DNA from: Pseudoduganella dura | GTDB lineage: Bacteria > Pseudomonadota > Gammaproteobacteria > Burkholderiales > Burkholderiaceae_D | Reading direction: 5' to 3' | Length of the DNA stretch: 64,000 nt | Assembly: GCF_009727155.1 (NCBI RefSeq) | Contig: NZ_WNWM01000002.1 | Span: 6,200,001-6,264,000, forward strand | In this document: in pieces, positions 45,971 through 47,929 of the stretch | Layout of the letters: each line of letters opens with the position of its first letter | Numbering within the stretch: the stretch's first letter is position 1 | Program-made: the position numbers and the translations under genes | Notes under the pieces: model-generated | Database searches by the model: none | Told to the model about the DNA's origin: nothing | The model's input: only the letters and a program-made list of their open reading frames with translations

Positions 45971-46138
45971 AGCGCGCCGGCGGGTGCCGTGCCGGCCGTG
46001 GTTACAATCGATGACAGTTTTTTATCTGCCAGCCGCTACCATGATGGATACCGCGGCCGCCACAGGCGCCCGCCGCATGCGGCGCTTATCGCCGTTATTG
46101 CCATTTCTCGCCGGTACAACAACCTGAAAGGCTCGCAG

Positions 46139-46585
46139 ATGATTCCCTTCCCCTTCGTGGTCCTCGCCCCGCAGTTCCATTTTCCGTTCAGCGGCGCGGT
46201 GTCGCAGGCCATCGACCCGGACGTGACGTGGTTCCAGAACACGATCCGGCCGGGCGCCGGCAACGCCCGGATCGAACGGCGCGCGTTCGAAGAAGTGGCG
46301 TCGTACGGCAAGCAGCTGGGCCTGATCACCGACGTGCTGCTGGAACAGGCTGCCCGCATGCCCGGCGCGGAGTCGGAGCCTGTGCGCAAGCTGCGTGCCA
46401 TGCGCGAGCAGGTCGAGGACATCAAGGCACAGGAGTACGGAATGGAGACTCGCGAACTGGTGGGGCGGGTGCTGCGCATGTTGCAGCACGGCGGCCCCGA
46501 GCTCGCCCTGCTGGCACGCCAGATGGACACGGCGCCCGAAGCGGCGTCGCGACGGATCGAATCGCAACAGGTGGAGCCCCAATGA
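46139..46585 (+). CDS. Hypothetical protein (148 aa), first of a gene pair
   Basis: Start ATG 46139 follows AAAGG. The protein starts with FPFVVLAPQFHFPFSG, contains EVASYGKQLGLITDVLLEQA, and then long Arg/Glu-rich helices. No signal peptide or catalytic motif is visible. Its stop overlaps the start of the next gene (ATGATGA), which implies translational coupling. The family is uncharacterised. Confidence 0.6.
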   Translation: MIPFPFVVLAPQFHFPFSGAVSQAIDPDVTWFQNTIRPGAGNARIERRAFEEVASYGKQLGLITDVLLEQAARMPGAESEPVRKLRAMREQVEDIKAQEYGMETRELVGRVLRMLQHGGPELALLARQMDTAPEAASRRIESQQVEPQ

Positions 46586-46833
46586 TGAGCAAACGTCAGT
46601 TGAGAAGAAACAGCGACATGGAAGCCCTGGTGCGCCAGGGCCTGGTGGTTGACGCCCAGCGCGGCGCTGCCAATGCGTGGGTGTACATGGCCGCGCAGGG
46701 CGTGCCGCGCAACGTGATCGTGCGCGTGCTGTCCGCGCCGGACAACCGGCGCGACGGCGACCGGTTCGCGGTGGAATCGACACGGCAGCCACCGCCGCCG
46801 GTGCGGGTGAGGGCGCCGCGGCACGCTCATTGA
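46582..46833 (+). CDS. Small conserved hypothetical protein (83 aa), second of a gene pair
   Basis: It starts MMSKRQLRRNSDMEALVRQG and contains WVYMAAQGVPRNVIVRVLS, ending in a Pro/Arg tail. The WVYMA..GVP..VI.RVL segment looks like a short helical motif I associate with Oxalobacteraceae hypothetical proteins. Function unknown; it is coupled to the upstream gene by overlapping start and stop codons and followed by a strong terminator. Confidence 0.6.
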   Translation: MMSKRQLRRNSDMEALVRQGLVVDAQRGAANAWVYMAAQGVPRNVIVRVLSAPDNRRDGDRFAVESTRQPPPPVRVRAPRHAH

Positions 46834-46892: not shown

Positions 46893-46918
46893 AAAAGCCT
46901 CCGCAAGCGGAGGCTTTT
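46893..46918. terminator. Bidirectional rho-independent terminator
   Basis: AAAAGCCTCCGC, a short AA loop, then GCGGAGGCTTTT form a perfect 12-bp stem with A and T tracts on both sides. It serves the gene pair on the plus strand and the first small peptide on the minus strand. Confidence 0.85.
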
Positions 46919-46940: not shown

Positions 46941-47087
46941 TTACAGCGGAGGCAGCGGGCCGTTCACGTACGGGGCGCCAGCCAGTTCGATGGCGCGGCG
47001 GACTTCGGCGAGGAACGACGAAACCAGGCGGGCGAAAGTCGAGGTTTCGGTAGCGGCTTCGAAGCGGTGTGCGGTCGTGGTGTTCAT
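46941..47087 (-). CDS. Small peptide 1 (48 aa) with C-terminal GAPYVNGPLPPL
   Basis: The start codon follows AGGAG with seven-base spacing. The product is MNTTTAHRFEAATETSTFARL..., an amphipathic helix (LVSSFLAEVRRAIELA), then GAPYVNGPLPPL at the very end. It is a paralogue of the peptide encoded at 47541-47699; the last 12 residues differ at only one position. An upstream pair TTGGCC (47162-47167) and TAAGAT (47138-47143), spaced 18 bp, is conserved with the paralogue. No family is recognised. The strong ribosome binding site and conserved promoter make it a real gene. Confidence 0.7.
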   Translation of the reverse strand: MNTTTAHRFEAATETSTFARLVSSFLAEVRRAIELAGAPYVNGPLPPL

Positions 47088-47137
47088 GGTAAGGCTCCTG
47101 TATTCGTTTGCGGTGTTTGCGTCTTCGCGATGATTGA

Positions 47138-47167
47138 ATCTTACGCGCACCCAAGATATATGGCCAA
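47138..47167 (-). promoter_or_regulatory. Promoter of small peptide gene 1
   Basis: Minus strand: TTGGCC (-35-like), an 18-bp spacer, TAAGAT (-10-like). The element AAAATTGGCC(A/G)TATA is shared with the second peptide gene at the same distance from the start codon (about 50 bp), so it is probably functional. Confidence 0.6.
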
Positions 47168-47540
47168 TTTTGATTTCCCATGCCTGCGATAATCAATTCA
47201 TATAACACTGGCGGCCGTTATCACTGTTTCTTTTGGTAAATTATACGTTCCCGTTATGTCTGGCAATTGCCATGACGTCGTTCGGTAATGATCGTGAATG
47301 TTTGATCCCTTCATGCACCGTGGCCGCTGCAGGCGCGTGACGACCGACGTTCCGGCGACGTGCCGATCAGGGAATGTGGAAGGAAACGGAAACGGAAACG
47401 GGAACGGCGACAGGCCGGGTTGCAGGCCGGTGCGGCCGGCAGGGAGGGCGCCGGCGCTCGGGGAAGACGGTTTGGCGGGAGGTGGAGCGGAAAGTACGGG
47501 ACCGAAGGGCCATGCGTGGCAGCTTGCGGTCCCCGCAGGC
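47168..47540. other. Gap between the two small peptide genes
   Basis: About 370 bp contain no convincing gene. There is a run of GGAAAC/GGGAAC hexamers at about 47382-47410 (low complexity) but no recognised element. The left edge holds the promoter of peptide 1. Confidence 0.4.
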
Positions 47541-47699
47541 TTACAGCGGCGGCAGCGGGCCGTTCAGGTATGGCGCGCCATACTGCTTGATGGCGTTGCG
47601 GATGAAGGCCGAGACAGCGCTGGCGGCGCGGACAAGGGCGGAGCCGGCTTTCGGCGCGGCGGTATTGGCGGCGGGGTTGGCAGTAATGGTGGCGTTCAT
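47541..47699 (-). CDS. Small peptide 2 (52 aa) with C-terminal GAPYLNGPLPPL
   Basis: The start codon follows CCAGGA with suitable spacing. It encodes an Ala-rich N-terminal half (MNATITANPAANTAAPKAG), a helix SALVRAASAVSAFIRNAI, and the shared terminus GAPYLNGPLPPL. The 3' ends of the two peptide genes are nearly identical over about 30 bp, while the N-termini diverge. That is the pattern of a conserved terminus with a variable leader or body. Function unknown: a secreted or modified peptide, a signal, or a membrane-active peptide are possibilities I cannot separate. Confidence 0.7.
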   Translation of the reverse strand: MNATITANPAANTAAPKAGSALVRAASAVSAFIRNAIKQYGAPYLNGPLPPL

Positions 47700-47751
47700 G
47701 GCGGTTCCTGGAGTCGTTGGCGTGATGCAATTGGCGTGATGCAGTGAACGA

Positions 47752-47781
47752 ATCGTACGCAAAGCCCAGTTATACGGCCAA
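47752..47781 (-). promoter_or_regulatory. Promoter of small peptide gene 2
   Basis: Minus strand: TTGGCC, an 18-bp spacer and TACGAT, aligned with the promoter of the first peptide gene. The upstream AAAATTGGCCGTATA segment is conserved. Confidence 0.6.
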
Positions 47782-47929
47782 TTTTAAGTTCAGATGTTGG
47801 CTATAATTTTTTTGGATAACTCTTCGGCATGCATGCGCGCGGCGCCTCTGCTGTTACCGCGATTCCGGTTGGCAGGCGCCGGCTTGCCTGGATCGATGCA
47901 AATCGATCGGCGCCCGCCACCGGTTCCCG

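Follow-up and report, generated by a model that had tools for sequence, protein, structure and literature searches.

Two small-protein genes lie in tandem on the minus strand of a 64,000-nucleotide stretch of the Pseudoduganella dura genome (contig NZ_WNWM01000002.1, positions 6,200,001 to 6,264,000), referred to here as the window. The pair probably (at roughly 0.7) belongs to an Oxalobacteraceae regulon with a LysR-type operator, the most likely reader of which is a LysR protein encoded divergently from another target gene. The operator is a regulon-wide mark and was missing from the earlier note on this DNA, which had been made from the sequence alone. In the open-licence literature searched, no relevant description of a regulon of this kind was found.

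The tandem genes and their local setting

Gene 1 (46941..47087, stop included, minus strand) encodes a 48-amino acid protein, MNTTTAHRFEAATETSTFARLVSSFLAEVRRAIELAGAPYVNGPLPPL, and gene 2 (47541..47699, stop included, minus strand) a 52-amino acid protein, MNATITANPAANTAAPKAGSALVRAASAVSAFIRNAIKQYGAPYLNGPLPPL. Both were recognized as open reading frames (ORFs) with relatives elsewhere and with a ribosome binding site before the start, AGGAG at 47095-47099 for gene 1 and AGGA at 47706-47709 for gene 2. The earlier note had claimed two peptides of these lengths, each with a ribosome binding site, and both features were found as described. The near-identity that it had reported for the last 12 residues also stands, as GAPYVNGPLPPL and GAPYLNGPLPPL share 11 of 12 and differ at a single position. 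The N-termini had been called unrelated, and this did not hold: the two proteins share the start MN(T/A)T, and each has an amphipathic helix that can be aligned with those of the other family members.

The sequence AATTGG starts 82 bp before the ATG of gene 1 and 84 bp before that of gene 2. At both genes it leads into TTGGCC, an 18-bp spacer and a -10-like hexamer, TAAGAT (47138..47143, minus strand) for gene 1 and TACGAT (47752..47757, minus strand) for gene 2, so that the matching promoter block and spacer noted before are indeed present. The hexamers were read from the sequence; TAnnnT occurs at exactly this position in 75 of 103 promoters. The pattern AAAATTGGCC(A/G)TATA is found at two places in the whole genome, namely the gene 1 and gene 2 sites, with a count of 0 for the reversed-pattern control. 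Scanning the region for a plain sigma-70 consensus gave no promoter, and the term “promoter” therefore rests on conservation for both genes. A plain sigma-70 promoter arising by chance was rejected, since the scan finds none and the upstream AT steps described below are invariant.

Located 3′ of gene 1 is a perfect hairpin, AAAAGCCTCCGC-AA-GCGGAGGCTTTT (46893..46918, read from the sequence), which is a probable terminator that possibly serves both directions. It is not in the list produced by the terminator scan, which requires five T. Upstream of the hairpin are two overlapping plus-strand ORFs (45989-46585 and 46582-46833), both without a Pfam match. The neighbours of the gene pair in the window include TonB receptors, an enterochelin-esterase-like protein and an AraC-type regulator. 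In the segment 47930-52693, the enterochelin-esterase-like gene, a TonB receptor and the AraC-type regulator adjoin one another and resemble an iron-siderophore uptake locus beside the pair.

The operator and the genes behind it

The promoter block is part of an operator of the form AT-N11-AT-N7-AT-N11-AT. The operator of gene 1 (47158..47203, minus strand) has AT steps with their first bases at 47203, 47190, 47181, 47168 and 47159, and its core is AATTGGCCATATATCT (47169-47154). That of gene 2 (47772..47817, minus strand) has them at 47817, 47804, 47795, 47782 and 47773, with the core AATTGGCCGTATAACT (47783-47768). The full frame occurs at just these two sites in the window.

The nearly fixed block, AATTGGATTTATATCT, is also found upstream of distant relatives. 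As an exact 16-mer it occurs at 35 places in 32 of 392 genomes of the bacterial family, while the reversed control gives none. When one mismatch is allowed there are 132 places in 103 genomes (control 2), and 124 of the 132 were examined. The block joined to the -10 pattern is absent from 386 genomes of other families of the order and from 13 own-family genomes in the draw (control 2). As those 13 lack the pattern too, its absence elsewhere is weak evidence of restriction to the family.

A variety of genes follows the block. Apart from the family of the window, one group consists of small membrane proteins of about 100 residues, whose C-terminal motif, judged by eye, recurs in a set of shorter proteins. 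A second group, of ~80 residues, has a motif resembling it, and a third, of 70 residues, starts with what looks like a signal peptide; a mixed set of proteins has 30-48 residues. There is also one DUF3563 protein (locus L110, near base 1003), through which this orphan family may belong to the regulon of the operator. DUF3563 (PF12086) proteins are short orphans like the window peptides, and L110 stands behind the same operator, but the window peptides do not match PF12086. The last class is an RNA, the RF02278 “toxic” sRNA of Betaproteobacteria, whose covariance model scores over its gathering cut-off in 9 of the 9 loci given.

The frame emerged from the alignment and was not sought: AT stands at -34, -21 and -12 before the block in every aligned promoter. 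In the non-redundant set, the five steps at -34, -21, -12, +1 and +10 are present in 80 of 80 promoters, whereas the other 71 upstream offsets have AT in at most 37 of 80, with a median of 5. This set was drawn from 104 distinct promoters by removing similar upstream regions, and the promoters had been sorted by downstream gene before the frame was noticed. By class, 30 of the 80 belong to the window's family, 18 to the membrane-protein group, 4 to the short forms of that group and 10 to sRNAs, with 9, 7 and 2 in the remaining classes. Among the 37 unclassed core matches, 13 repeat promoters already counted, 8 are framed and lie outside the 104 (L114, L146, L147, L163, L164, L170, L172 and L181), and 16 have no frame; none of these 16 precedes a gene assigned to a class. 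At L114, near base 1280, the full frame stands 140 bp before a protein of normal size (172 aa or more), a possible larger member of the regulon.

The operator can be read as two T-N11-A dyads 22 bp apart, with AT-N11-AT occurring twice in all 80 promoters, both window sites included. Typical LysR sites have a recognition element near -65 and an activation element near -43. The dyad centres would fall near -65 and -43 if the -10 hexamer lies at +26, where TAnnnT is present in 75 of the 103 promoters and missing in 28; both positions are relative to presumed start sites. T-N11-A is the LysR site class according to passages of two papers (PMC3382589, PMC11739112). By its spacing, and with these presumed start sites, the anatomy of the operator would be LysR-type.

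The genes that share the operator would form a single regulon, as the same operator stands before small-protein genes and before the multi-copy RF02278 sRNA; their co-expression is presumed from this. A further test used sites picked by RNA family RF02278 rather than by the promoter block. Within the bacterial family, at least four of the five AT steps were present at 38-39 bp in 26 of 26 distinct scored sites (24 distinct sites together with L249 and L250, both of which have all five), and all five in 13. At the five sites from genomes of other Burkholderiales families, each of which has only 1-2 of the five steps, the RNA stands without the operator. The -35-proximal block varies at the sites chosen by RNA, so its constancy elsewhere is partly due to the block-based search.

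The genome of the window has 14 RF02278 matches (L252-L265) at E up to 0.001, 2 of which score over the Rfam cut-off. Of the 14, 10 carry three or four of the first four AT steps at 37-38 bp, compared with 1.3% of random windows. The four frameless matches score 41 bits or less, though two of the ten framed ones also fall below 41.

Relatives of RF02278 include bdhR1 of Burkholderia cenocepacia and S17 of Bordetella pertussis. Sections of the S17 study describe a sigma-A promoter and processing, and report that this sRNA represses a regulator gene (PMC11722255). For the Burkholderia sRNAs, the relevant passages report that overexpression inhibits growth, predict a role in regulating carbohydrate uptake and metabolism, and state for B. 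cenocepacia that the regulation of their accumulation is unknown (PMC5688073). Four RF02278 sRNAs are listed for Herbaspirillum seropedicae in part of another study (PMC7011215).

The candidate regulator

The membrane-protein group, with its short forms, accounts for 29 loci, and at 28 of them a LysR gene runs divergently with the operator between the two genes. These 28 loci are largely one inherited gene pair, and the pair is not beside the genes of the window. In the genome of the window, the LysR gene is located at 3055471-3056403 of contig C2, beside a weak core match at 3056447 (L079). At this locus, a TGC-N3-GCA motif was seen between the -35 and -10 of the divergent membrane-protein gene (85-95 residues).

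The protein has the Pfam domains HTH_1 and LysR_substrate, with a mean column identity of 78% over 16 members, and its best PDB match (E 2.5e-47) is to the 1uth / 5ae5 (DntR) group. Among the NCBIfam equivalog matches listed it lies below every cut-off, the best being BsrA with 226.5 bits against 480. The 1uth / 5ae5-group regulators share these domains, the T-N11-A dyads and the divergent placement of regulator and target. The present case differs in the targets found: instead of forming a single catabolic operon, they encode small proteins and an sRNA from scattered places in the genome.

The regulator is found in 355 of the 392 family genomes, usually as a single copy. It is present in 102 of the 103 genomes that contain a core match, and in the exception (G213) the match lies 132 bases from a contig end. 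The comparison was made from listings, with 17 regulator-negative genomes identified by elimination. The hypergeometric probability of at most one core-match genome without the regulator is 1e-4, uncorrected for kinship; the co-occurrence is partly shared ancestry, because nearly every genome of the family has the regulator and those without it belong to certain genera. From the regulator's side, 30 loci were centred on the LysR gene. The full frame occurs in 19 with three or fewer core mismatches and in 5 more with four, a further five have a diverged form by eye, and one (L199) has none.

Nine regulator-negative genomes were searched for the sRNA, which scored over the cut-off in six and below it in G013, and was not found in two. 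Five of the six have no operator at the proper distance, one of these being counted so with three AT steps that align at 35 bp (L268). The sixth, G037, keeps the operator at 3 of 4 scored sRNA sites (L271, L273 and L275), although a search at E up to 1e-110 detected no regulator in it. Its genus-mates G065 and G087 have the regulator, so the assembly may have a gap. G037 could thus represent a gap, a diverged regulator or a counter-example, and it is counted against the model.

It is unlikely, if a real competitor, that the regulon and operator are as described while another DNA-binding protein reads the operator, the divergent LysR gene being just one more target. G037 fits such an arrangement, and the spacing of AT steps by itself names no protein; an alternating array with steps of ~11 bp would suit other dimeric regulators too. 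Set against this are the divergent placement at 28 of 29 loci, the missing operator in five of the six regulator-negative genomes with the sRNA, and the agreement of the dyads with the LysR site class cited above. The divergent LysR protein is hence a well-supported candidate and the most likely reader of the operator.

Each ORF stands as a unit of one gene, with a stereotyped promoter whose two T-N11-A dyads run into the presumed -35 region. The LysR protein would hold the upstream dyad and, upon the presence of a co-inducer, would contact the dyad adjoining the -35 region and recruit RNA polymerase.

A metabolic lead comes from the motif noted at L079. TGC-N3-GCA is the core of the PhbF site of Herbaspirillum in an excerpt of the work on that regulator (PMC3206438). 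In the membrane-protein group, 21 of 24 promoters contain it, against an expectation of 0.12, and the group has this motif in common with the PhbF/PhaR regulon of storage-polymer genes in Herbaspirillum. In contrast to that regulon, 1 of 35 window-family promoters and 0 of 12 sRNA promoters have the motif. Control of the window genes by PhaR/PhbF was rejected on the first count, and control of the sRNA was dropped on the second. Together with the RF02278 literature, the PhbF-like motif suggests, by analogy and as a lead, a carbon or storage response for the regulon.

The small-protein family and the possible meaning of the regulon

Searches of about 5.8 billion proteins were run with single-sequence queries and then with a 28-row profile. 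The single sequences returned 7 relatives for gene 1 and 12 for gene 2, and the profile returned 123. Among the 120 of these that were listed, the organisms are Massilia, Pseudoduganella, Duganella, a Janthinobacterium MAG and [Empedobacter] haloabium. The names among those listed are hypothetical or uncharacterized, save one MarR-regulator label: P0021, a 47-amino acid member named MarR family transcriptional regulator by one source, is very likely misnamed. At the level of whole genomes, the first profile has matches in 38 of the 392 of the family, spread over 4 of 44 genera. This count includes two false matches, L033 and L034 (in G339 and G291), and probably false ones in G013 and G319.

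Pseudoduganella umbonata and P. flava have this tandem pair as well, and the operator is present at each copy. Between the window and P. umbonata, pS is 0.27 and pN 0.06 for gene 1, and 0.34 and 0.13 for gene 2; the change is mostly synonymous in both. The resemblance of the two genes exceeds chance, given the tandem pair and promoters in these two species, the synonymous change and the 123 relatives. By homology and conservation, the two ORFs, which are presumably translated, are tandem paralogues; the family to which they belong is found in Oxalobacteraceae and has proteins of about 45-50 residues.

The window peptides have nothing over cut-off in Pfam, NCBIfam, PHROGs or PADLOC, in line with the earlier note, which named no described family with this terminus. 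Its idea of a functional-looking, conserved peptide family under duplicated regulation is supported. Rows below the cut-offs are weak and at chance level, such as HapK with 13.1 bits against 25, and a profile search of the PDB gave a best E of 0.028. A phage or anti-phage origin was rejected, with no PHROG or PADLOC match (one PHROG row, E 0.27).

The exact 12-mer is confined to a subgroup. In that subgroup the terminus is nearly invariant, and family-wide there is mainly G-x-P-Y with a loose PPL end. The constants of the family are an MN-x-T-like start, an amphipathic helix, (R)-R-A-x-E-L-x-G-x-P-Y and a tail that often ends in PPL. The core is therefore looser than the 12-mer, namely the helix followed by RRAxELxGxPYxxGxxPPL. 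The amphipathic helix has a z above 1 in 30 of 33 members (mean 2.6). AlphaFold2 predicts a single helix, residues 7-36, along with a loose tail (mean pLDDT 69.3, pTM 0.38), a weak model that is consistent with the helix of the family. No signal peptide or transmembrane stretch is evident, and the 18-residue windows of highest moment have a mean hydrophobicity of -0.40 to 0.26.

The earlier note had proposed a signal, an export or processing mark, a modified peptide or a membrane-active peptide, and had advised looking for a linked protease, exporter or modifying enzyme. In the surroundings of 40 family loci, examined with crude gene calling, close neighbours were shared only within sets of orthologous positions. 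Across unlike positions, large superfamilies alone recur (TonB receptors at ~30% identity and another large protein at 34-41%), and no modifying, protease or export gene is among the recurring neighbours. The signal and modified-peptide readings are unsupported for want of such a gene. No fixed core or cleavage motif was found across the family, as the C-terminus varies among members. It is thus quite improbable that the peptides are secreted or modified, be it as signals or as RiPP-like or bacteriocin-like products with the C-terminus as the active part. This would suit a C-terminus that is the most conserved part and a subgroup 12-mer that hardly varies, but it sits badly with the absence of linked genes among the recurring neighbours, the lack of an evident export signal and the variable terminus; signal, RiPP and bacteriocin were each rejected on the linked genes and the terminus.

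It is scarcely credible that the ORFs are by-products of a transcript that functions as a regulatory RNA, as the sRNA sharing their operator does, for although the common operator and the terminator-like hairpin 3′ of gene 1 would agree with this, the ribosome binding sites, a pN well below pS and protein-level conservation in 123 relatives speak against it.

A membrane-active helix is possible for the window peptides. From the predicted amphipathic helix and the conserved flexible tail, a peripheral membrane- or surface-binding small protein inside the cell seems somewhat likelier than a secreted signal. Each peptide would be one amphipathic helix with this tail, binding the membrane periphery or another surface within the cell.

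A broader reading is offered tentatively and as the less probable side of the question. One widespread Oxalobacteraceae LysR regulator might command a set of CU-rich sRNAs present in many copies, along with orphan small proteins of several kinds, rather than a metabolic operon, with gene and operator forming a portable cassette at many unlinked places. The family of the window peptides, characterized by an amphipathic helix and a tail with G-x-P-Y, might then be a new surface-binding class that acts with the sRNAs in a carbon or storage-polymer response.

Two odd peptides have in this way become an entry point to a whole regulon. A candidate regulator and an operator can be offered for the RF02278 “toxic” sRNAs in this bacterial family, and several orphan small-protein families are grouped by shared control. 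Taken together, these genes appear to be regulated as a single set, for which there is one candidate master regulator.
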